Shown: positions 151 through 63,593 of the stretch, one piece after another
Position numbering within the stretch: position 1 is the first letter of the stretch
How the letters are laid out: the number at the start of each line of letters is the position of its first letter
Virus record (IMG/VR): IMGVR_UViG_3300046171_000193
Coordinates: 62,001-126,000 of that record
Reading direction: 5' to 3' (one strand)
Length of the DNA: 64,000 nt
Origin: a virus
Made by a program: the position numbers and the translations under genes
The notes under the pieces: generated by a model
The model's input: only the letters and a program-made list of their open reading frames with translations
Told to the model about the DNA's origin: nothing
The model's database searches: none

Positions 151-1734
151 ATGGCAATCACATTAAGAAATTCTAAAGGGACGGCATTGACCCACGTCGA
201 ACTCGATGCCAACTTTACCACACTGCAAAATGCTGACTTAGATTCGGCAGCGGTTACGTCTATTGCGCAAGCTTTAGATAATGCGCAGGTTATTCCTTCA
301 CATATCAATACACTTGCTGGCGATTCAGATGTAGATTTTGGGTCTAAAAAAATCTATTATGCCAATATGTGGGATTCTGAAGGAGCTCTTCCAAATGCTA
401 CGACGTATCATGGTATGTTTGCTCACGTTCATGCAACCGGAGCAGGATACTTTGCTCATGGCGGAGCCTGGGTAAAGCTTGCTAATAACGCAGATCTTGG
501 AACCGGTATTGACTCGGCCAAGACTATTGCGCTCATTGATAGTGCATACGTACAAGCAAGAGAAGGCATTGACAGTATCGGTGAATTATCTAACGTTAAC
601 ATGTCTGGTATTGCAAACAACAAAATCCTTAAATGGGATTCAGGAACTCAACACTTTATTGTTGCTTCTGATGTAAGTGGCGGTGGAGGCGGTGGAGGTC
701 TAGCATATGCAGACTTTAGTGTATCAGTCGCTGCAGCAGGTTCTGCTAACTTGGCATATAATAACGCAACAGGTGTGACTACTTACACTCCACCAGACTT
801 ATCAAGCTATTTACAAAGCTATACTGTAACTGAAAACGATGTAACGAACCATCAAGCTGCATTGTCAATTACTGAATCTCAAATAAGTAACTTACAGGCT
901 TATCTAACAAGTGAAACATCTCATGCTGATGTACTTGTAGATGGAGACTTTGCAAGTGCAGGATTTATGAAAACTAATGGATCCGGAACATATTCGATAG
1001 ACAATAGTACATACATTTCTCAGGGTCAATCGATTGATATGAACGGTACTGAGTTAATACTAGATCAAAATGGTAATACAAGTTTTCATGCAAGTACTGA
1101 TGATCAGATCGATATTAAAATAGGTGGTACAGATGTAGGATATTTTAATTCTACCGGACTTGTTGTTGATAATATTACATCTCAGGCAACAGGTACTCCT
1201 ACTCTCACTGCATCAACTGATATTAATATGGTCACAGGTGGCTCTGTTACAGTAAGTCAAAACAGTGGTGCAGGCGGTGGATTCAGGGTTGGTAGTATGA
1301 CAACGTCACAGCGTAATGCATTGTCAGCATCTAATGGTGAAATCATTTATAATACTACTAACAGTCAAATGGAAATTTATGAGCATAGCGCATGGCATCC
1401 GATGACAAAAGGTTCTAATGTATTTAATGTCACAAGTAGCGGTTCTAGCGATTATGTTTTTAATGATCCAGAGAGTCATTGGTTTACTTCATCAACAAAT
1501 GATCCTGTTCTCTATTTGCGTAGAGGCGAAACATATTACTTTGTTGTTAATGCTTCTGGCCATCCATTTCAAATTCGTGTAAGTAATGGTGGGTCTGCAT
1601 ATGCTGATGGTATAACAGGAAATACACAGGCCGTAGGAACGGTCGTATTTAAAGTTCCGATGGGTGCACCATCTACATTGTACTATCAATGTACTGCACA
1701 CTCGGGTATGGGTAACACAATAAACATAGTGTGA
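151..1734 (+). CDS. Tail fibre-like protein with C-terminal cupredoxin-like domain
   Basis: A 527-residue virion protein. The start (MAITLRNSKG) follows AGAGGTAA, and the ELDANF segment is a common opening of marine T4-like fibre proteins. The middle is Ser/Thr/Asn/Gly-rich with a poly-Gly stretch near residue 175. The last ~100 residues look like a cupredoxin fold: a His in SGHPFQIRV and a terminal YYQCTAHSGMG, giving the order H...C-x2-H-x2-M known from type I copper proteins of the amicyanin class. Whether copper is bound cannot be told from sequence. The subtilase gene follows 4 bases after the stop, so the two are likely co-translated. The fibre assignment is inferred from composition and context. 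Confidence 0.75.
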   Translation: MAITLRNSKGTALTHVELDANFTTLQNADLDSAAVTSIAQALDNAQVIPSHINTLAGDSDVDFGSKKIYYANMWDSEGALPNATTYHGMFAHVHATGAGYFAHGGAWVKLANNADLGTGIDSAKTIALIDSAYVQAREGIDSIGELSNVNMSGIANNKILKWDSGTQHFIVASDVSGGGGGGGLAYADFSVSVAAAGSANLAYNNATGVTTYTPPDLSSYLQSYTVTENDVTNHQAALSITESQISNLQAYLTSETSHADVLVDGDFASAGFMKTNGSGTYSIDNSTYISQGQSIDMNGTELILDQNGNTSFHASTDDQIDIKIGGTDVGYFNSTGLVVDNITSQATGTPTLTASTDINMVTGGSVTVSQNSGAGGGFRVGSMTTSQRNALSASNGEIIYNTTNSQMEIYEHSAWHPMTKGSNVFNVTSSGSSDYVFNDPESHWFTSSTNDPVLYLRRGETYYFVVNASGHPFQIRVSNGGSAYADGITGNTQAVGTVVFKVPMGAPSTLYYQCTAHSGMGNTINIV

Positions 1735-1738
1735 TAAA

Positions 1739-3787
1739 ATGAGCGAAAAGTATTACGTACTAACAACATATACAAAGGAACAATTTGATGAAATAAGCGC
1801 AGAGCTTATAACATCTGATTCAACTCCGGAGACAATACCCGATCGATCAGTTGATTGTACTGATACGAAAGAACACAGCGATGTACGTGGTGAATTTTCA
1901 TTAACAGAAGAAGAGTCAGCCGCTTTACAATCCGATGATCGTGTTAAAATAATTAATGAAAGTCCAAACAGATACCCTGAAACATATATGCCACCTCCTG
2001 ATGAATTAAAAAATCAAATATGGGGAACGGCAAAAGATCGATGGGATACTGCATATAATAATTACCAAATGTGGACAGTAGGAAGTTCGTCTATTCAAGG
2101 TAATTTTAGTGGAGCTGAACCGACAGTTAATAGGACTACCGCGCTATACCGAATGCAAACAAAACAAAATCCGTGGAAGACTGCATCAACTAATGAAAAC
2201 GTGGCTATAAGCTCTAAAGTACAACAACAAGGCGCAGGTGAAAATGTTGATGTCATATGTGCTGATAACGGTACATGGATCGCACATACAGAATTTATTA
2301 ATAAAGGCGTAAACAATGCAGTAAATCCGGTTGATTATAAGTCAGGTAACGTTTTAAATCGAGCAGGATATTGTGACGTATTAGATGTTGTTCTTGACGG
2401 TCCATACTATATTGATCCTGACTGGTTCAATGCAGATACAAGTAGATTAGAAACACGATGGGATGGTACGGTTGTACCGACCGAAGCTGCAGCTCAAAGC
2501 TGGTGGAGAGATTCAACTCAGCGCAGTGCATCGTTTGCCGCATTTGGAAATATTCTTGTATCTACTGCTTATACTCGAGACAATGTACACGGGAGTCCGA
2601 CAACGTTAGCATACGATGCAGATCATGGTACACAATGTGCTAGTTTAATATACGGTCGTACACACGGGTGGGCATACAACGCAAATAAGTGGCATCTAAA
2701 CTTATATGGTAGTGGTTATAATGTAGGTAGTTTTGAAATCGGATTTGACGTACAAAAAATATTTCACACATATAAACCTAATAATCCTATCTTTGGCACA
2801 AAAGATCCTACCATTAGCTCAAACAGTTGGGGATTTAGATCATCTTCTAAAGGTGGATCTTATTACTACTTTAGAACAGATGGAGCTGCCTCTTATGGTG
2901 GAACATCAAACGAACCAAACTATATTAGTTGGTTAGGCGCAATGGGCGATGGCGGTCGTTGGAAAAGCGAGCATTACGATAACAGTACGACACAGGCTGG
3001 AGACGAATTAACTCAATCAGGTGTCATTATGGTAACTGCAGCTGGAAATAGCAATCAGCCACAATATAATCCTGATCATCCGAACTATGATAATCGTATA
3101 TCAAATAACAATACAAACACTTTTTATCAAGATACGTTCAGTGAATTTGGTTATAACGTAACAGGATCAACTAATCGTAGAGGGTTTCCACAGCATATAG
3201 GAAAAACTGTAAGTGAAACATCATATGGAAATACTACGGTTAAATTTCCTGCAATCAACGTTGGTTGTTTAGATGATGATATGACAAATAGCTATGATCA
3301 AGATAGAAAAGTAAATTATAGTGATTGTGGAAATGCAATTGACTTTTTTGCTCCTGGAGATGGAACGTTAGCCGCATGTCCAGATGCATCTTATGGAGTT
3401 GATACAAGCAGAAGCGATGGAGAATACGCTGATTTAACTGCTATCTCTGCATGTAGAGATACAAGGTTTAGTGGTACAAGCGCTGCATGTCCTGTAGGCG
3501 CAGGTCTAATGGCCGTGGTTATGCAATTCAATAGAAGTTGGACATACGAGAATCTTCGTAATTGGATTGAGACAACCGTAGATGAACAACCGTCTTCTGA
3601 TATGTACGAAGGAACTGAAGTTACAACAGCCGGTGGTAGTTGGTCAAGTGATTATAATGCATTACAAGGCGCTGATCGCAGAGTATTGTATGCTGCCACG
3701 ATACCTATAAATACTCCATATCCTGCAGATTTTAAAATGGAAGGTCCTTTAGCGATAACCGCTGGACACTTCGATAAAGTAGTATAA
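1739..3787 (+). CDS. Subtilisin-like serine protease (S8 family), virion-associated
   Basis: A 682-residue protein with a complete S8 catalytic set: Asp176 in VICADNGT, His296 in DADHGTQCA, oxyanion Asn437 in TAAGNSN and nucleophile Ser581 in FSGTSAACP. Residues ~1-80 resemble an I9-type propeptide (YYVLTTY near the start; FSLTEEESAAL and DDRVKIINE later), which normally folds and inhibits the enzyme until cleaved. There is no signal peptide or membrane segment, so it is probably assembled into the particle rather than exported. It sits between two fibre genes. Likely roles are maturation of tail proteins or digestion of host surface protein at adsorption; both are inference. No active-site residue is lost. 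Confidence 0.88.
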   Translation: MSEKYYVLTTYTKEQFDEISAELITSDSTPETIPDRSVDCTDTKEHSDVRGEFSLTEEESAALQSDDRVKIINESPNRYPETYMPPPDELKNQIWGTAKDRWDTAYNNYQMWTVGSSSIQGNFSGAEPTVNRTTALYRMQTKQNPWKTASTNENVAISSKVQQQGAGENVDVICADNGTWIAHTEFINKGVNNAVNPVDYKSGNVLNRAGYCDVLDVVLDGPYYIDPDWFNADTSRLETRWDGTVVPTEAAAQSWWRDSTQRSASFAAFGNILVSTAYTRDNVHGSPTTLAYDADHGTQCASLIYGRTHGWAYNANKWHLNLYGSGYNVGSFEIGFDVQKIFHTYKPNNPIFGTKDPTISSNSWGFRSSSKGGSYYYFRTDGAASYGGTSNEPNYISWLGAMGDGGRWKSEHYDNSTTQAGDELTQSGVIMVTAAGNSNQPQYNPDHPNYDNRISNNNTNTFYQDTFSEFGYNVTGSTNRRGFPQHIGKTVSETSYGNTTVKFPAINVGCLDDDMTNSYDQDRKVNYSDCGNAIDFFAPGDGTLAACPDASYGVDTSRSDGEYADLTAISACRDTRFSGTSAACPVGAGLMAVVMQFNRSWTYENLRNWIETTVDEQPSSDMYEGTEVTTAGGSWSSDYNALQGADRRVLYAATIPINTPYPADFKMEGPLAITAGHFDKVV

Positions 3788-3813: not shown

Positions 3814-4800
3814 ATGACTCGTCAGAACATAGCAAATGGTACGTATGCCAATGACGGAAGTGGTGATACATTACGTCAAGCGAGCCAGAAAATTAATGAA
3901 AATTTTGTCGAGCTTTATCAAAAACTCGGTGGAGATAGTAATACTTTAGTTGGAGCAATTGCTGTTGCAGCGGGTGGTTTACAGTTTGAAGGAACTACGG
4001 CAGATCTAAACGAAACAGTTTTAAGAGCTGTTGATCCTACGGCCGATCATGTTATTCATTTACCAAATGCCTCTGGTGAAATTTTACTTGATTCTGCCAC
4101 ACAAACATTATTGAATAAAACACTTACCAGCCCAACAGTAAGCGGAATAAAAGTTCAAGATAATGATGCATCGCACACATATAATTTTATAGCGGGTTCA
4201 TTGACTGCGAATCATAATCTTAATATACCAACACTATCAGATAGTGATACACTTACTTTACTTGGTGCATCTCAAACATTAACAAATAAAACTCTTACAG
4301 CTCCTACAATGTCTCAACCTAAAGTTAGTGGTTATATTGGAGACGCTAACGGAGCTGAAATTTTTAGTATTACTGCAACAGGAAGTGCAGTTAATCATGT
4401 TGATGTACAAAACGCCGGTACTGGTTCAAATCCTGTTATGAGTGCAAGTGGAGACGATGCTGATGTTAATCTTAATTTAAGTGGTAAAGGAACAGGATCA
4501 GTAGAAATTGAAAAAGCAGCTTATTCTTCTGATGTGATTACGGCCACAGGAGCTGCTGATACTTCTAAATCATATATTGTCGGAAACTCTGGAACACCAA
4601 TTTCGGTATCAGTGGCTAATGGTACGACAGTAGGAGAATATAAACTATTTACAAATAAGAACGCTGGTACTGCTACTATTACACCAGCCACCTTTGGACC
4701 AGGAACCAGCATTGCTTTAGCAAATAATCAAGGATGCACAATGATATGGGATGGAACAAGTTGGCAGTTGGTCAGTAACTTCGGCGGAACCGTGAGCTAG
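3814..4800 (+). CDS. Tail fibre / virion structural protein
   Basis: A 328-residue structural protein of a type common in marine T4-like phages (opening MTRQNIANGT, then INENFVELY). It has two copies of an internal motif of the form QTLxNKTLTxPT around residues 97 and 152, suggesting repeated beta-structured shaft modules. The C-terminal part (ITATGAADTSKSY onward) is a compact Gly/Thr-rich domain. It starts at ATG 3814 behind AGAGGTAA and has its own late promoter. The gp8 baseplate gene follows 10 bases downstream. Exact role in the tail is not known. Confidence 0.7.
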   Translation: MTRQNIANGTYANDGSGDTLRQASQKINENFVELYQKLGGDSNTLVGAIAVAAGGLQFEGTTADLNETVLRAVDPTADHVIHLPNASGEILLDSATQTLLNKTLTSPTVSGIKVQDNDASHTYNFIAGSLTANHNLNIPTLSDSDTLTLLGASQTLTNKTLTAPTMSQPKVSGYIGDANGAEIFSITATGSAVNHVDVQNAGTGSNPVMSASGDDADVNLNLSGKGTGSVEIEKAAYSSDVITATGAADTSKSYIVGNSGTPISVSVANGTTVGEYKLFTNKNAGTATITPATFGPGTSIALANNQGCTMIWDGTSWQLVSNFGGTVS

Positions 4801-4810
4801 GGAATCTAAA

Positions 4811-6187
4811 ATGGTTGCAATTATTACAGATAAATTTAAAAGACAAGTTCTTAACGATATTTTTACAAACGTTACAGATTCTGCGGCTACGTACTATATT
4901 GGTATTGGTAGATCACAAGACTGGAATGCTACGGACGCAGCTCCCACTCCTTTGAATACTGCAAAAGAAGAACGTGACTTTCGTTTAAATTTACAGGCTA
5001 TGAAAAAAGGTGAAGATGTTTCATATGTGATTCCTAGATATAACTGGTCTTCTGGTACAATTTATGCTTCGTATGATGATCATGTTCAAGGTTATCCAAC
5101 AAATGCATATTATGTTATGACAGATGAGTTAGCTGTTTACATGTGTTTACAGCAAGGTAAAGATGCTACAGGATCTTCTGTGACATCTACGGTTAAACCG
5201 ACAGGCACTTCTTTAGATCCTATTTCAACAGCAGACGGTTACGTATGGAAATACCTATATGGACAAACTGCTTTGCGTTCGGTAAAGTTTACATCAGCTA
5301 ATTATATTCCCGTACAGTTCGTTGACTCTGCCGGCGCTTCTGATCCTGCATTAGAGCAAGAACAAAAAACAATTCAGGATGCAGCCGTCAAAGGACAGAT
5401 TACTAGTATTAAGGTAGATAACGGTGGAACAGGATATACGTCTGCTCCAACTATTACATTTACCGGTAACGGAACAAAAACTCCTGGCGCAACAGCTACT
5501 GTATATAACGGAACTATTGTAAAAGTTGAGATGAATGATTCTGGTACAGGAAAAGCTTATGGCGCTGGATACGATTATGCATCAGTTCTATTTTCTGGTG
5601 GCGGTGGAACAGGAGCACATGCTCGTGCTGTAGTATCAACACCGTTAGGAATAGGTGGAGATGCAAGAGACGATCTTCGCTCAAGCGCTATTATGTTTAA
5701 TTCGAAGCTAATTGGCGACGAAACAAATGCGATGATTACAAGTAATGATTATAGGCAAGTAGGAATAATTAGAGATCCTAAAGTTGGTCCAGATTCTGCA
5801 GATTCAGATTTTGAAGGTCCTGCAGCAAACGTCTTAAATAAATTAAAGTTTGGTTCTATTGCTCAAAACTTTACCGAAGACAAAACAATTCTAGGATCCA
5901 CATCTGCTGCAAAAGCATATATCGATAACGCAGATTCAAGCTATGTATGGTATCATCAGACTGATTCTACTGGCTTTGCTACATTTATCGAAGGCGAAAC
6001 GATTACGGAGACTGATGGTAATGGTGAAGGCATCTTAGATTCAGCTTCGGTTGACGGTGATACATTGGCATATATAAAAGGTACAGTCGATCGATTGTCT
6101 GGTACAATATTGTACATCGATAATCGAGCTGCGATTGAAAGAGATCCCGCACAAACTGAAGACATAAAAGTAATAATTCAACTGTAG
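4811..6187 (+). CDS. 8: Baseplate wedge protein gp8 homologue
   Basis: A 458-residue protein related to T4 gp8, a baseplate wedge subunit. Recognisable gp8 features include the N-terminal DKFKRQVLNDIF, YYIGIGRSQDW, the segment YYVMTDELAVYMCL and TADGYVWKYLY near residue 145. It is longer than T4 gp8 because of a Gly-rich insertion around residues 195-270 (GTGYTSAPTITF and a second copy-like stretch), as in marine relatives. It lies between a fibre gene and the large DUF4815-type protein, the usual baseplate neighbourhood. Confidence 0.82.
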   Translation: MVAIITDKFKRQVLNDIFTNVTDSAATYYIGIGRSQDWNATDAAPTPLNTAKEERDFRLNLQAMKKGEDVSYVIPRYNWSSGTIYASYDDHVQGYPTNAYYVMTDELAVYMCLQQGKDATGSSVTSTVKPTGTSLDPISTADGYVWKYLYGQTALRSVKFTSANYIPVQFVDSAGASDPALEQEQKTIQDAAVKGQITSIKVDNGGTGYTSAPTITFTGNGTKTPGATATVYNGTIVKVEMNDSGTGKAYGAGYDYASVLFSGGGGTGAHARAVVSTPLGIGGDARDDLRSSAIMFNSKLIGDETNAMITSNDYRQVGIIRDPKVGPDSADSDFEGPAANVLNKLKFGSIAQNFTEDKTILGSTSAAKAYIDNADSSYVWYHQTDSTGFATFIEGETITETDGNGEGILDSASVDGDTLAYIKGTVDRLSGTILYIDNRAAIERDPAQTEDIKVIIQL

Positions 6188-21055: not shown

Positions 21056-22651
21056 ATGGCAACAATTATAGATCTCGGTAAACTAAGATTTGAGTATCGT
21101 GGTGAGTGGTCAAATTCCACTACTTACGAGGCTAATGATGTTGTCAAGTATGGTGGCAACCTTTACGTATACAAATATGGTTTAAAAACTTCAGGTAATA
21201 TTCCACAGACAGCTTCCCTGTATTGGGACTTGATGGTAGAAGGCTTTAAGTTTGAAGGAGCATACGATTCTGACGCAACATATAACATTGGCGATGGATT
21301 TTCATATGGTGGTATTGTTTATATCACAACAGCAAATAGTATAAGCGGAACACGTCCACCAAATGCTGGATATTCTACATTTACTGATGGTATTCAATAT
21401 GAAGGCACGTGGATTAATTCAAATCAATACCAAAAGTCAGATATTGTTAAGTATGGTCCAAAGTCATACATTGCTACACAAGATCCTCCAATCGGGGCGG
21501 TCCCATTACAATCTGCGTATTGGCAAGTATTTTCTGACGGAATATCCTTTGACGATGCCTACGACAGCAATTTAACATATAAGCCTGGCCAAGTAGTTAA
21601 ATGGGGTCCAAACTCTTATATAGCTCAGGCAGACGTTATAGCAGGGGATTCTCCTAATGTTGCCGGCAATTGGAATTCCATCATGGAAGGCCAAGAATGG
21701 AGAGATTCATACGCTTCTTCTACAAAATATTATAAAAATGAAATTGTAAAATGGGGTGCTCAAGGTTATCGTGCTAAACGTGATAATATTTTTAACTCTC
21801 AACCAGATAATAATCCAACAGACTGGCAACTAATTAGTGAGGGTTTTTTACCAAAAGGTGCATGGAACAGCGGAACTCAATATTATAAAAATGATGCTGT
21901 ACAATATGGTAATAATTTTTATAGAGCAAAACAATCTTCTTTAAATCAACTTCCTGATACAGCTACTACTTATTGGGAAGAATTAACTTCCGGTGTGAAT
22001 ACCCGTGGTTCTTGGGCATCCACCACAGTTTATTATGAAGGTGATGTTGTTATAGACGGTAATAAATCGTATATTAAGAATGGAACAACACACACTTCTG
22101 CTGCAGATTTTGCAACTGATGCGTCAAACTGGACACAGCTTACAAACGGAATTAATTATAGAGCAGGCGGTTACGATAGTTCTGCTAACTATTTAATAAA
22201 TGATGTTGTACAATATAGTACAAGCTCTTATATAGCACTAGAAAATTTTGCTGCTTCTGGTAATTTTGGTAGTGAGCTTTCGGGTGGTAAATGGGAACTA
22301 TTAGCTGCAGGCGGTGGTTCTGTTTTACCATCAATAACTAATGCTGACAGAGGTAAATTTTTAGGATCGACAGATGGTGTTGCTTATAGTTGGCAATATC
22401 CAGGTAAAGCTGATAAGGTTTATTATGTTGCTAAAGGCGGTAATGCAGATTCTGGTCTTGGTCAAACAATTGATACGGCTTGGGGATCAGTTAAATTTGC
22501 GTTAGATAACGTAACAGGTCCAGCTACTATCTACGTAAAAGAAGGTTCTTACCAAGAAAGCTTACCTATGACTATAGGTAACGACATAACACTTAGAGGT
22601 GATGGCCAAAGAAACACTGAAATTAGGCCAGCTGCTGGTGATTCGAAATAA
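21056..22651 (+). CDS. Tail fibre, N-terminal part: CBM-like repeats (frame broken at end)
   Basis: A 531-residue open frame. Residues ~8-425 contain eight modules of about 45-50 residues with a W/Y-x-Y-x-x-x-D-V-V-x-Y/W-G-x-x-Y-x-A pattern and a closing aromatic (W-x-x-x-x-G), resembling chitin-binding type 3 / CBM5-12 domains. Such modules bind polysaccharide and suggest surface-glycan recognition. Residues ~445 onward begin a right-handed beta-helix (YVAKGGNADSGLG, then TIYVKEGSY). The frame ends at a TAA created by one extra A in the AAA at 22646-22648. Restoring it gives ...GDSNKTMFFVNSG and joins the following frame, so both belong to one protein of about 1,400 residues. Confidence 0.75.
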   Translation: MATIIDLGKLRFEYRGEWSNSTTYEANDVVKYGGNLYVYKYGLKTSGNIPQTASLYWDLMVEGFKFEGAYDSDATYNIGDGFSYGGIVYITTANSISGTRPPNAGYSTFTDGIQYEGTWINSNQYQKSDIVKYGPKSYIATQDPPIGAVPLQSAYWQVFSDGISFDDAYDSNLTYKPGQVVKWGPNSYIAQADVIAGDSPNVAGNWNSIMEGQEWRDSYASSTKYYKNEIVKWGAQGYRAKRDNIFNSQPDNNPTDWQLISEGFLPKGAWNSGTQYYKNDAVQYGNNFYRAKQSSLNQLPDTATTYWEELTSGVNTRGSWASTTVYYEGDVVIDGNKSYIKNGTTHTSAADFATDASNWTQLTNGINYRAGGYDSSANYLINDVVQYSTSSYIALENFAASGNFGSELSGGKWELLAAGGGSVLPSITNADRGKFLGSTDGVAYSWQYPGKADKVYYVAKGGNADSGLGQTIDTAWGSVKFALDNVTGPATIYVKEGSYQESLPMTIGNDITLRGDGQRNTEIRPAAGDSK

Positions 22652-25247
22652 AACAATGTTCTTTGTTAACAGTGGAACACTTGTCGAAGAATTTAAGTTT
22701 AGTGGATTGACTGGCTTTGCTTTAGATTCTGCAGGTGGCCAGCCACACGACATTGAATACGCAACTATCGGTGGTGTATATTTTAGATTAGATCCAAATG
22801 CGGTCATTTATAAATCTCCATATATTAAAGAATCAACTGCTTTTTCAAGTGGTGGTATAGGCGCTGTTATCGATGGTGGCTTGAATAGCAATGCTGCAAA
22901 CCAAGGTTCTATGGTTTTCCATACATTTACTCAGGTGCACAATGGTGGTGCAGGTTTCTGGGTACGAAGAAATGGTAAATCTGAGATCGTTTCTTGCTTT
23001 ACTTACTATAACGATTTCGGTCTTGTAACGACCGGTGGTGGTAAGATTAGAGCGCTAAACTGTAACAACTCGTACGGTACATATGGTGCTGTTGCTGAAG
23101 GATTTGATTCTGGTGAAGTTGCTATTACAGGTAAAATTAGGGGTCAATCACTTCATTATGATGGTAATACAATTACTGGTGGTACTGAATTCAGTGTAGG
23201 ATCACTAATTACTGGTTTAGCTAACGACAACAACGTCAATAGAGCAACACGTGCTGCTAATGTTTCTTTCCATTCACCAAATCACGGTTTGTTAACCGGT
23301 GAAAAAATTGCTATCTCAGGAATGACACCTTCAACATGGGCGTCACTATTTACAGCAGATAGTTATTGGGTAACAGTTACAGACTCGTCTAACTTTATTC
23401 CATATATAGACTCAGCTAGATCAACAGGTATTGATACACAATTAGCTGGTGGAAGAAATACAGTTTCTTCAACTATTACGGACATTGCTCGTCAAAATCC
23501 GGTTCGACTGACTGTTACAACATCTGCTAATACAGATTCATATGCTCCACACTATATTCAAAGTGTTGGTGGCATGACGCAAATGAATAACATTTGGGTT
23601 ACATTTGATAGTGGAGCCGCAACAGCAGGTACCACCTTGTATGCAAGACAAGCTGAAAATACTCAGATTCGAGTTAGTCAGCCTAATCCGGCATCTGAAG
23701 GTACTCAAACAAAAGGAACAACTGGCGGATCAACATATGATTTTGGTTCTAATAACCAAACAATAACACTTTATAGAGGTTCAAGATATAGATTCCTTGG
23801 TGACTCTGCAGCCGCTGTAACAAAATCGGTTGCTGGTGGGCGTTTCTATCTTTCTACATCAACGAGCTGGGATTCTAGTAACTTTACTGATGAATATACA
23901 ACTGGAGTTCTAAATAGCAGAAATACATTAGATGGCGATTCGACTCTTGATAGTACCGTAGACGGACTGATTATTGAAGTTGGACCTACAACTCCATCAA
24001 CATTGTATTATAATTGGGATAGTGCTTCATCTGCTTCTACAATGAGAGGACAAATTAACATTGTTAATCCTCCATTCATCGACGCTCAGTCATATAACGT
24101 TTATACGTCTGGTGGTCAAATCAGATTGATGGACTCAGGCGATTATTTTGACTCTGCTCATTGGAACGCTGAAGCACCAACTGCTAGTGTAATTAATACG
24201 CAGCCATCAGAAGACAAAATCTATATTGAGAACATGACGTTCCCTGGATTTACCGGTGGTGAGACAATTACACAAGGCGCAGTATCTGCTAGCATTGTTA
24301 ATAGTAACTTCATTAGAGGACAATATGGCTATATTGTAGCACTAGATACTTTGACAGGACAACCAAAACCTGGCCAATCTATCTCATTTGCTGATGATCA
24401 GGATAGTGCTGGATACGGAAGAGCATATGTTGTTTCTAGTGTAACCGGATACGACTCATCGACGGCTCAAGCAACACTAACATTATCACAGCAAAAACTT
24501 GAGACAAACGCTTCGGCTGATGACGCTGTCGCAACAATTAGAACTAATTATTCTCAGGTACGATTAACAGGTCACGATTTCTTGAGCGTGGGTACTGGTG
24601 GAGTAACTACAACAAATTATCCTGGAACTCCAACTCAACCTGCTTCTCAAGGTAACGAAGTTATTGAGACTGCTCCAGGTCGAGTTTACTTTATTTCGAC
24701 CGACCAAGATGGTAACTTTAGAGTTGGTAATTATTTCCGAATCGATCAGGCTACTGGACGAGCAACATTGGATGCATCTGCATTTGATCTTTCTGGTTTG
24801 ACGTCATTGAGACTTGGTTCAATTGGTGCACAAATTGGTGAATCAATTAACGAGTTCTCATCAGATGCAACGTTATCTGGTAACTCAAACCTTGCTGTTC
24901 CAACGGAGAAAGCAACTAAAGGTTATGTAGATGAAGCACTTAATTCTTTGGTTGATGCAATAGGTGCTGGAAATTATGACTCTGCTAATACTACATGGGC
25001 GACTGGTGCAAATACAGGAAATCCATTCCTTGACTCTGATCGTGGAGACTCTGGCGGAAGAAGAGCATTAGGATATACTATTGGACCGATAACTGTTTCT
25101 GAGATAGATTACGATTCGTATACCGATGAAGTTAAATCTTATAAAGAAAAAATGGTTTTAGGATTTGGATTTACAGAAGAAAAAAGCGTTTCTATTACAT
25201 ATAATAGCGACGGATCAATAGAACGAATACAAACGACCGTGTTATAA
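22599..25247 (+). CDS. Tail fibre, C-terminal part: beta-helix and degenerate cupredoxin-like domain
   Basis: Continuation of the fibre that starts at 21056; genuine coding sequence begins near 22649, not at the apparent ATG at 22599. The first ~150 residues are beta-helix rungs (FKFSGLTGFALDS, ATIGGVYFRL). A central block (residues ~375-490) resembles the cupredoxin-like end of the fibre at 151 but has YYNWDSAS where that protein has YYQCTAHS, so the copper ligands are missing. The C-terminal region has the fibre phrase KATKGYVDEAL and a final globular domain. Probably a host-recognition fibre. Confidence 0.72.
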   Translation: MMAKETLKLGQLLVIRNKTMFFVNSGTLVEEFKFSGLTGFALDSAGGQPHDIEYATIGGVYFRLDPNAVIYKSPYIKESTAFSSGGIGAVIDGGLNSNAANQGSMVFHTFTQVHNGGAGFWVRRNGKSEIVSCFTYYNDFGLVTTGGGKIRALNCNNSYGTYGAVAEGFDSGEVAITGKIRGQSLHYDGNTITGGTEFSVGSLITGLANDNNVNRATRAANVSFHSPNHGLLTGEKIAISGMTPSTWASLFTADSYWVTVTDSSNFIPYIDSARSTGIDTQLAGGRNTVSSTITDIARQNPVRLTVTTSANTDSYAPHYIQSVGGMTQMNNIWVTFDSGAATAGTTLYARQAENTQIRVSQPNPASEGTQTKGTTGGSTYDFGSNNQTITLYRGSRYRFLGDSAAAVTKSVAGGRFYLSTSTSWDSSNFTDEYTTGVLNSRNTLDGDSTLDSTVDGLIIEVGPTTPSTLYYNWDSASSASTMRGQINIVNPPFIDAQSYNVYTSGGQIRLMDSGDYFDSAHWNAEAPTASVINTQPSEDKIYIENMTFPGFTGGETITQGAVSASIVNSNFIRGQYGYIVALDTLTGQPKPGQSISFADDQDSAGYGRAYVVSSVTGYDSSTAQATLTLSQQKLETNASADDAVATIRTNYSQVRLTGHDFLSVGTGGVTTTNYPGTPTQPASQGNEVIETAPGRVYFISTDQDGNFRVGNYFRIDQATGRATLDASAFDLSGLTSLRLGSIGAQIGESINEFSSDATLSGNSNLAVPTEKATKGYVDEALNSLVDAIGAGNYDSANTTWATGANTGNPFLDSDRGDSGGRRALGYTIGPITVSEIDYDSYTDEVKSYKEKMVLGFGFTEEKSVSITYNSDGSIERIQTTVL

Positions 25248-60850: not shown

Positions 60851-61315
60851 ATGACAAGTAATTTCGTATATCCACGGAACGCATTCTTAGGTTTCGACCA
60901 CATCTTCGATCAGCTGGAGTCTATTCACAGCCACGCGAAGGATACTTATCCCCCACATAACGTAATTAAACACGACAATATGAAATATGAGATTGAACTT
61001 GCTGTTGCAGGTTTCAATAAAGATCATATTGATATTGAAATCAAAGACCACGTGCTCACTATCACAGGTGATAGACCACAAAGGCGTGATCAAAATAGTT
61101 ACGTTCACAAAGGGATTAGTGCTCGAAGGTTTAAGAAGTCGTATCGTCTAAGCGAATACACAGAAGTCACTGGAGCAGACATGAAGGATGGGATTTTGAC
61201 AGTCGGTTTAGAAGTCGTCCTACCAGAAGAGAAGCGTCCTCGTAAAATCAATATTGGTCAAAACGAGGTAATCAATGACAAATCTACTAAAGAACTTCTT
61301 ACAGAAGCTACGTAA
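60851..61315 (+). CDS. hsp20: Small heat shock protein (Hsp20)
   Basis: A 154-residue alpha-crystallin-type chaperone. The domain spans residues ~38-135 (YEIELAVAGFNKDHIDIE, VLTITGDR, MKDGILTVGLEVVLP). The C-terminal IxI motif in RKINIGQ docks neighbouring subunits. It starts behind AGGAGG. Hsp20 genes are widespread in marine T4-like phages and are thought to hold folding intermediates of virion proteins. It overlaps the DUF1127 gene by 41 bases. Confidence 0.92.
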   Translation: MTSNFVYPRNAFLGFDHIFDQLESIHSHAKDTYPPHNVIKHDNMKYEIELAVAGFNKDHIDIEIKDHVLTITGDRPQRRDQNSYVHKGISARRFKKSYRLSEYTEVTGADMKDGILTVGLEVVLPEEKRPRKINIGQNEVINDKSTKELLTEAT

Positions 61316-61478
61316 CAGACAAACCTATAGAAACACTTATAATGAACTTTCAAGCCTTACAGATTATGAATTAAATGATATTGGCATTACTCGAGGGGAC
61401 ATTAAAAGAGTAGCTATGGGAGATCCATCTTATCGATTAGTCACAGACTATAATGATAATCTGAAAGGATGGGTTTAA
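61275..61478 (+). CDS. DUF1127 (YjiS-like) protein
   Basis: A 67-residue basic protein. ELSSLTDYELNDIGITRGDI (residues ~24-43) is the DUF1127 signature, common in small proteins of alpha- and gammaproteobacteria; some bind RNA. It starts inside the 3' end of hsp20 and ends TAATG with the next small gene. A bacterial rather than typical phage family, so probably acquired from the host lineage. Confidence 0.75.
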   Translation: MTNLLKNFLQKLRNRQTYRNTYNELSSLTDYELNDIGITRGDIKRVAMGDPSYRLVTDYNDNLKGWV

Positions 61479-61642
61479 TGACAATTATAACGTCTTATAT
61501 ATTCTCGCCATTGTCGGGATTGTGGTCTTCATTAGACCGTACTATGAAGGTGATAGGGTACTCACGGGCAGCGGCAGAACTAACGCGGCTTGGGTATCAC
61601 GAGCAATCTAAACGGCTTATGATGGAATTTAAGAACTTATAA
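61478..61642 (+). CDS. Small protein coupled to the DUF1127 gene
   Basis: A 54-residue frame starting at the A of the previous stop (TAATG). The C-terminal half (YSRAAAELTRLGYHEQSK, then RLMMEFKNL) is a basic amphipathic helix and the N-terminus is hydrophobic (IITSYIFSPLSGLW). DUF1127 proteins often show a similar RAAxELxRL helix, so it may be a degenerate second copy. It is missed by a 60-residue length cut-off. Function unknown. Confidence 0.6.
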   Translation: MTIITSYIFSPLSGLWSSLDRTMKVIGYSRAAAELTRLGYHEQSKRLMMEFKNL

Positions 61643-61645
61643 ATA
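61638..61645 (+). promoter_or_regulatory. T4-type late promoter (TATAAATA)
   Basis: Exact consensus overlapping the stop of the 54-residue gene, 23 bases before the DoxX-like start. It heads the membrane-protein and pseudoazurin operon. Confidence 0.8.
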
Positions 61646-61668
61646 AGAGAACAATAGTCAGAGGTGAT

Positions 61669-62076
61669 ATGATAAAAAACATTGTTAATAAAATTCCAGA
61701 ATTTTGTATGAGTCATTGGCTTTTTCGTATTCCATTGGCTATTGTTTTTCTACAGCAAGGCTTTAGTAAATTACCGGTAACAATAGAAGGTGCAGAAAGT
61801 TTTGACTTGCCTTACATTGTGTGGTGGTTTGCAGCATACGGTGAGATCGGTGCTGGTATTGGCTTGCTTGTAGGCGGAGCCATTATATGGCAGAAGCTAA
61901 AAGAAATTAATGATATTATAACTCGGTTCAGCGGTATTACAATTTGTAGTATTATGACAGGAGTTATATGGGTAGGTCAACCAGAAAGTTTCTGGGATGT
62001 TATCTTGTACGATAACTTCCATGTGTTTCTTTGGGTTGGCGGTTTATATTTTGCACTGAGAGGTAATAGAACATGA
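61669..62076 (+). CDS. DoxX-like inner-membrane protein
   Basis: A 135-residue membrane protein with about four hydrophobic segments (residues ~18-35, 48-70, 85-103, 115-130). FRIPLAIVFLQQGFSKL is typical of the DoxX family, and the glycine-rich second segment (IGAGIGLLVGGAII) follows the family plan. DoxX proteins have been linked to quinol oxidases and sulphur/redox metabolism. First gene of a late operon ending in pseudoazurin; overlaps the next gene by four bases. Confidence 0.72.
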   Translation: MIKNIVNKIPEFCMSHWLFRIPLAIVFLQQGFSKLPVTIEGAESFDLPYIVWWFAAYGEIGAGIGLLVGGAIIWQKLKEINDIITRFSGITICSIMTGVIWVGQPESFWDVILYDNFHVFLWVGGLYFALRGNRT

Positions 62077-63161: not shown

Positions 63162-63593
63162 ATGAATAAAGCTCTAATATTTACTATGGTACTTACCTTT
63201 TTGAGTACTATGATTATATCAGCTGCTAACGCAGGAGATATTACTATTGAAATGTTGAACAAACGTGACGATGGACAAAAGATGGTTTACTCTGCAGATA
63301 TTGCTAGAGTAGAAGTAGGTACTACAATAACATGGATTCCGACGTCAAAAGGACATAACGTAGAATTTATTGCTGGACCTGATGAATGGGATATGCCGAA
63401 GAAATCAAAGAACAATAAAGAAGTTTCTATTACCTTTGATGTTCCAGGCGTTTATGTATATCAATGTACGCCACACGCAACAATGGGCATGATTGCTTTA
63501 GTTGTAGTTGGTGATGGTGATAATGACGTATCTAAAGCAAAGGTACGAGGAAAGTCTAAAAGAAAGCTAAAGGAACTTTTAAAGGAGCTGTAA
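63162..63593 (+). CDS. Pseudoazurin-like secreted blue copper protein
   Basis: A 143-residue precursor. Residues 1-24 are a signal peptide (MNKALIFTMVLTFLSTMII, cleavage likely after ANA). The mature domain has the type I copper ligands His65 (SKGHNVEF), Cys102, His105 and Met110 (YQCTPHATMGM), with the C-x2-H-x4-M spacing of pseudoazurin and plastocyanin; GHNVEFIAG is pseudoazurin-like. These carry electrons in the periplasm, for example to oxidases or nitrite reductase. A ~20-residue Lys-rich tail (RGKSKRKLKELLKEL) is unusual for the family. Last gene before a strong terminator. Confidence 0.88.
   Translation: MNKALIFTMVLTFLSTMIISAANAGDITIEMLNKRDDGQKMVYSADIARVEVGTTITWIPTSKGHNVEFIAGPDEWDMPKKSKNNKEVSITFDVPGVYVYQCTPHATMGMIALVVVGDGDNDVSKAKVRGKSKRKLKELLKEL

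Follow-up and report, generated by a model that had tools for sequence, protein, structure and literature searches.

The C-terminal 104 residues of a fibre/baseplate protein from a marine virus almost certainly adopt the cupredoxin fold, and the four residues that could hold a metal in this domain are retained, almost without exception, in hundreds of related ocean phages. The explanation that we favour, and to which we give somewhat better than even chances as a whole, is that this is a genuine cupredoxin domain with a complete type-1-like metal site, the metal rigidifying a docking face. As part of the same explanation, and with the same chances, we propose that T4-like marine phages use the domain as a mobile structural module, terminal on gp9-like fibres and elsewhere internal or fused to subtilases.

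The DNA analysed here, called the window, is a stretch of 64,000 nucleotides corresponding to positions 62001-126000 of a 151,681-base IMG/VR virus record. Comparison of its gp8-like protein with those of annotated phages placed Phage C48C1 nearest (35%), with cyanophages and Pelagibacter phage Mosig (29%) further off. These distant relatives indicate a marine myovirus of the T4-like kind that has no close isolate.

Fold of the C-terminal domain

The gene lies at positions 151-1734 on the plus strand and encodes 527 amino acids in an uninterrupted open frame, the translation of which has no internal stop and ends at a TGA (1732-1734). The protein matched PHROG 677 ("baseplate wedge tail fiber protein connector", gp9-like) with an E-value of 2.7e-42 for the whole protein and 1.8e-33 for the C-terminal domain alone. 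Pfam T4_gp9_10_N (PF07880) was matched by 7 of the 23 aligned relatives and not by the protein itself, and a sequence search found no solved structure close to it. The last 104 residues (residues 424-527; positions 1420-1731, plus strand) contain GHPFQIRV and YYQCTAHSGMG, and the four residues singled out by the initial annotation, which had been made from the DNA letters alone, are present exactly as described. In domain numbering, and all on the plus strand, these candidate ligands are His48 in the GHPF motif (1561-1563), Cys91 (1690-1692), His94 (1699-1701) and, as the axial ligand, Met97 (1708-1710).

The AlphaFold2 model of the domain was a confident beta-sandwich of eight strands (residues 2-7, 11-15, 31-33, 38-44, 50-53, 72-78, 86-91 and 98-103), with a pLDDT of 95.1 and a pTM of 0.87. 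His48 immediately precedes strand 50-53, strand 86-91 ends with Cys91, and the loop leading into strand 98-103 carries both His94 and Met97; in the strand order of the model, the candidate ligands are thus predicted to occupy the positions at which they would be found in cupredoxins. The initial annotation had proposed structure prediction as a check, and its outcome was a sandwich of the cupredoxin type: among the 50 matches listed by Foldseek against the PDB, 49 were cupredoxin-fold chains with a probability of about 1.0, including rusticyanin, copper nitrite reductase (CuNIR), COX II, plastocyanin, amicyanin and pseudoazurin. The TM-scores to solved cupredoxins were modest (0.40-0.61) and a single PDB E-value among the matches listed was below 1e-3, and we therefore regard the domain as a distant member of the fold. 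The separately predicted full-length monomer had a poor stalk (pLDDT 62.8) and a good C-terminal domain; it served solely as a second view of that domain, and Foldseek again returned cupredoxin-type chains with it. Among viral models (BFVD), the Foldseek matches also included small "beta-sandwich proteins" from records of Pithovirus and Marseillevirus.

Sequence comparisons led to the same group of proteins. The E-values of the domain against PDB sequences were weak, the best phmmer match being plastocyanin (1b3i, E 0.0027), with pseudoazurin also among the matches. When a profile of 19 relatives was used, plastocyanin, multicopper oxidase, amicyanin and CuNIR ranked highest, and the loop aligned without gaps to the C-x2-H-x2-M of amicyanin, Met97 falling on the amicyanin ligand Met. 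The alignment by hhalign of a family of 174 sequences (described below) with the family of the pseudoazurin encoded by the same phage gave a probability of 94.8% and an E-value of 5e-8, and paired GHPF with GHNV and YYQCTAHSGMG with YQCTPHATMGM. The domain in the window did not match Pfam Copper-bind (PF00127), which 7 of the 19 relatives matched weakly (best E 4e-4), and neither the domain nor the whole ORF matched the NCBIfam amicyanin model TIGR02657 at an E-value of 0.01. Weak matches to Pfam PF25489 (At5g54830-like) were obtained for 12 of 19 family members, the domain in the window scoring 18.3 bits against a cut-off of 27.

The domain resembles amicyanin in its predicted fold and in its short loop, and amicyanin entries were among the Foldseek matches. 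It differs from amicyanin in being part of a virion protein, with no signal peptide of its own and no known redox partner, and in the residues at the first ligand, which read HPF instead of HNV. Asparagine usually follows the first His in small blue copper proteins, whereas the phage domain has a proline there. With pseudoazurin and plastocyanin the domain shares the fold, the first His in a GH motif and the CT-x-H core. The Met ligand of these two proteins is two residues further on (H-x4-M), and they are free electron carriers while the phage domain belongs to a virion protein.

Conservation and joint loss of the candidate ligands

We recruited relatives of the domain with three queries that stop short of the loop (residues 1-84 of the domain in the window, S-SSM5, and a divergent MED4-213 type), which yielded 174 distinct sequences. 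An earlier recruitment with loop-containing patterns (LYYQCTAH and YY[QV]CTAH) gave an apparent conservation of 100% that was biased, and was not relied on. With the loop-free queries, Cys91 and His94 were each kept in 171 sequences, Met97 in 172 and His48 in all 174. The recruitment was independent of Cys91. The conservation of the first His in close homologues, to which the initial annotation had tied its proposal, is therefore borne out, with the qualification that His48 lies inside the recruiting queries and that its count is the least independent of the four. All four residues were among the seven lowest-entropy columns of the 104, and the spacer positions 92, 93, 95 and 96 varied (1.5-2.9 bits). 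This conservation under loop-free recruitment rules out a chance motif, and fold, sequence and conservation agree on a cupredoxin-like domain with the full amicyanin-type ligand set.

The exceptions were few. One relative (L334) had a single Met-to-Leu change at position 97, another (L207) had one extra residue in the loop, and in L392/L395, L155 and a second copy in the window (L495) Cys and His were missing together. This second, diverged copy (23745-24065, plus strand; E 7.5e-6 with the A1 profile) is located in an 885-residue frame (22590-25247), and its ligand columns read G/A/A/M, His48, Cys91 and His94 all being replaced. When 341 distinct domain matches were read at the four ligand columns, all four residues were present in 277. 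Among closed C-terminal copies the complete set was found in 130 of 131, the exception (L248) being probably a frameshifted copy, and the ligand-poor complete copies were internal ones. A further 40 partial matches spanned the loop half only and appear to be mostly pseudoazurins.

The joint disappearance of Cys and His is what is expected of a metal centre, and we consider it probable that the domain binds a metal at this candidate site. It bears directly on the explanation of the domain as a cupredoxin-like sandwich in the apo state, its four residues being kept for folding or packing only and holding no metal in nature. Copies of the same fold that lack the ligands do exist, one of them in the same phage, so that the fold does not strictly need a metal, and F41 and G64, also invariant in the domain, are presumably structural. 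However, Cys and His were lost jointly rather than singly, the spacers vary freely, and a lone Cys with no partner is not expected to stay invariant in an apo protein. An apo domain is the reading least consistent with the pattern of losses, and we find it very unlikely.

Three other kinds of site were ruled out. The single conserved Cys of the domain excludes a conserved intramolecular disulphide, the absence of CxxCH excludes heme c, and the absence of HxH excludes an iron site like that of gp37. Separately, hybrid domains were observed in S-CAM1 and in a viral contig (L167:3001-3168 and L249:1501-1755), which combine HPFEIRV or HPFQIRV with another C-terminal half that has no C-x2-H-x2-M.

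Position in the virion, spread and gene context

In all 80 of the close homologues checked, the protein ended 0-5 residues past the domain. The C-terminal placement given by the initial annotation is thus supported; that its "fibre tip" would be a free distal one is not established, the nearest annotation being a gp9-type wedge/fibre connector and the stalk being poorly modelled. If the analogy with gp9 holds, the C-terminal domain may hold the long fibre, as a joint rather than a free tip. Direct homologues of the protein are the gp9-type proteins of T4-like cyanophages (PHROG 677) and further virion proteins that bear the domain, examples being S-SSM5 gp9 and those of ACG-2014d, S-RIM2 and S-CAM8. 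The homologue records that we inspected describe a wedge/fibre connector, a structural protein or a hypothetical protein, and annotate neither a metal site nor a cupredoxin domain. The loop of S-SSM5 gp9 reads CTIHAAM and that of the protein in the window CTAHSGM.

The domain was found in 370 annotated phage records, mainly of cyanophages, and also in Pelagibacter phage Mosig and Methylophilales phages; the proteins that bear it are baseplate, fibre, structural and S8-peptidase proteins. A few bacterial MAGs carry it as well (four matches). Two of these (L083 and L085) have a gp9/10-like N-terminus and are probably phage contigs. Another, a Bacteroidetes MAG protein of 2296 residues (L084:1397-8284), combines collagen-like repeats with the domain (GHPF...CTAHTSM); it looks cellular and possibly reflects a cellular use of the module.

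The adjacent gene (1739-3787, plus strand) encodes a subtilase-like protein (Pfam S8, E 3.7e-15; PHROG 9158, E 3.3e-80), and PHROG 9158 includes proteins that join a subtilase and a C-terminal cupredoxin domain in one chain. The two genes are also side by side in S-SSM7. A subtilase gene was directly downstream of the domain gene in 34 of the 71 homologous loci with enough flank, which rules out this partnership as a universal rule. The subtilase-like protein has candidate Asp175, His296 and Ser581 residues and lies within the tail gene region, in which a T4_gp9_10_N protein (3814-4800), the wedge protein resembling gp8 (4811-6187) and a protein of 1750 residues from a conserved phage family (6197-11449) follow.

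A separate gene near the end of the window (63162-63593, plus strand) encodes a pseudoazurin-like protein, with E-values of 9e-16 for Pfam Copper-bind and 1.8e-22 for a PDB pseudoazurin and a score of 97.9 bits with the NCBIfam pseudoazurin model, below its cut-off of 109.85. An N-terminal signal peptide is apparent by eye. No relatives of this protein were matched in annotated phages, but IMG/VR contigs contain 245 candidate stretches that code for relatives of it. It is a probable auxiliary metabolic gene, comparable to the plastocyanin gene petE carried by cyanophages (PMC3037559). Upstream of it (60851-62076, plus strand) are a small heat-shock protein (IbpA-like) gene and, identified by eye, a short DUF1127-like ORF and a DoxX-like ORF; the DUF1127-like ORF resembles, again by eye, alphaproteobacterial proteins. 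Together with the pseudoazurin, these three ORFs hint at an alphaproteobacterial host.

Another rival explanation is a chemical use of the site, in which copper at the fibre end would be recognised by a copper-uptake or redox protein of the host surface, or would serve in contact sensing or electron transfer. The retention of the full ligand set, axial Met included, across very divergent copies is in its favour, as is the separate pseudoazurin of the same phage. Iron precedents in marine phages and the "Ferrojan horse" idea have been discussed (PMC11705849, PMC12753301), and the chemical use would be a copper version of the latter. Against it, no receptor or redox partner is known, annotation as a gp9-type protein points to a joint more than to a tip, and the domain is also found internally and in subtilases, where contact with a surface is not evident. 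Redox chemistry or recognition of copper is conceivable; as the explanation of the domain as a whole, we regard such a chemical use as decidedly improbable.

A proposed structural metal at a docking face

What the analysis shows is the sequence, a predicted fold, ligands that are conserved and lost together, and a domain placed at the C-terminus; a structural metal at a docking face is what we infer. The site would bind a transition metal, most likely copper, with zinc as the main alternative, and the metal would be loaded during assembly or after lysis. By pinning the loops that carry His, Cys, His and Met, it would make the face at the metal end of the domain rigid, and this face would dock to a partner, either the next part of the fibre, should the analogy with gp9 be correct, or a receptor on the host surface. 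We put the chances of such a structural or docking role at about even. The role does not require electron transfer, which we think unlikely. The cytoplasm in which phage proteins fold is poor in copper, so that the loading of copper is not obvious, and this counts against our preferred explanation; that copper is the native metal of the candidate site seems to us only slightly favoured.

The main rival gives the metal the same structural role and replaces copper by zinc or iron, the site being genuine and its metal purely structural, as in the tips of T4-type fibres. Since folding is cytoplasmic, zinc would be easier to obtain there than copper, and cupredoxins made in the bacterial cytoplasm often emerge with zinc. 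Methionine, on the other hand, is a poor ligand for zinc or iron, and Cys-His-His-Met with an almost invariant Met is the type-1 copper ligand set. For iron, a fibre metal with a structural role has a precedent in the HxH motifs of T4 gp37 (PMC11705849), but the phage domain does not have the HxH pattern. We consider a native zinc or iron site unlikely.

The fibre tip of T4 gp37 holds iron at HxH motifs, which are also found in marine phages, and a structural or host-docking role has been proposed for metal in phage fibres (PMC11705849). The initial annotation, in stating that a full metal set is rarely retained by structural proteins of phages, accordingly went too far. The likeness to gp37 is one of working principle, a metal held in a fibre, and not of kinship: gp37 is an intertwined trimer of unrelated fold in which iron is coordinated octahedrally by His only, whereas the candidate site of the phage domain lies within a single beta-sandwich chain. 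It is a site of the blue-copper type that is unusual in a phage structural protein. Neither the cupredoxin fold nor the ligand set is new. Our literature search, which covered papers outside subscription, found no description of the two serving marine phage virion proteins as a near-invariant terminal module, and no link between cupredoxins and phage virion proteins.

Judging from these sequences, a metal ion, probably copper, may be present on the tails of many ocean viruses. Discussion of metals in phage fibres has so far centred on iron in HxH motifs, and a near-invariant type-1-like site in hundreds of ocean phages would, if real, be a second and chemically different class of virion metal. 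A bolder proposal, which we rate as rather improbable, is that the tails of T4-like marine phages bear copper in a standard blue-copper terminal module of their fibre/baseplate proteins that docks to, or is recognised by, copper or redox proteins of the host surface; phage particles would then be a hidden part of ocean copper chemistry. Some of the phages that bear the domain have been cultured with Synechococcus or Prochlorococcus, and the finding bears on the attachment of marine phages and on whether their particles bind trace copper.
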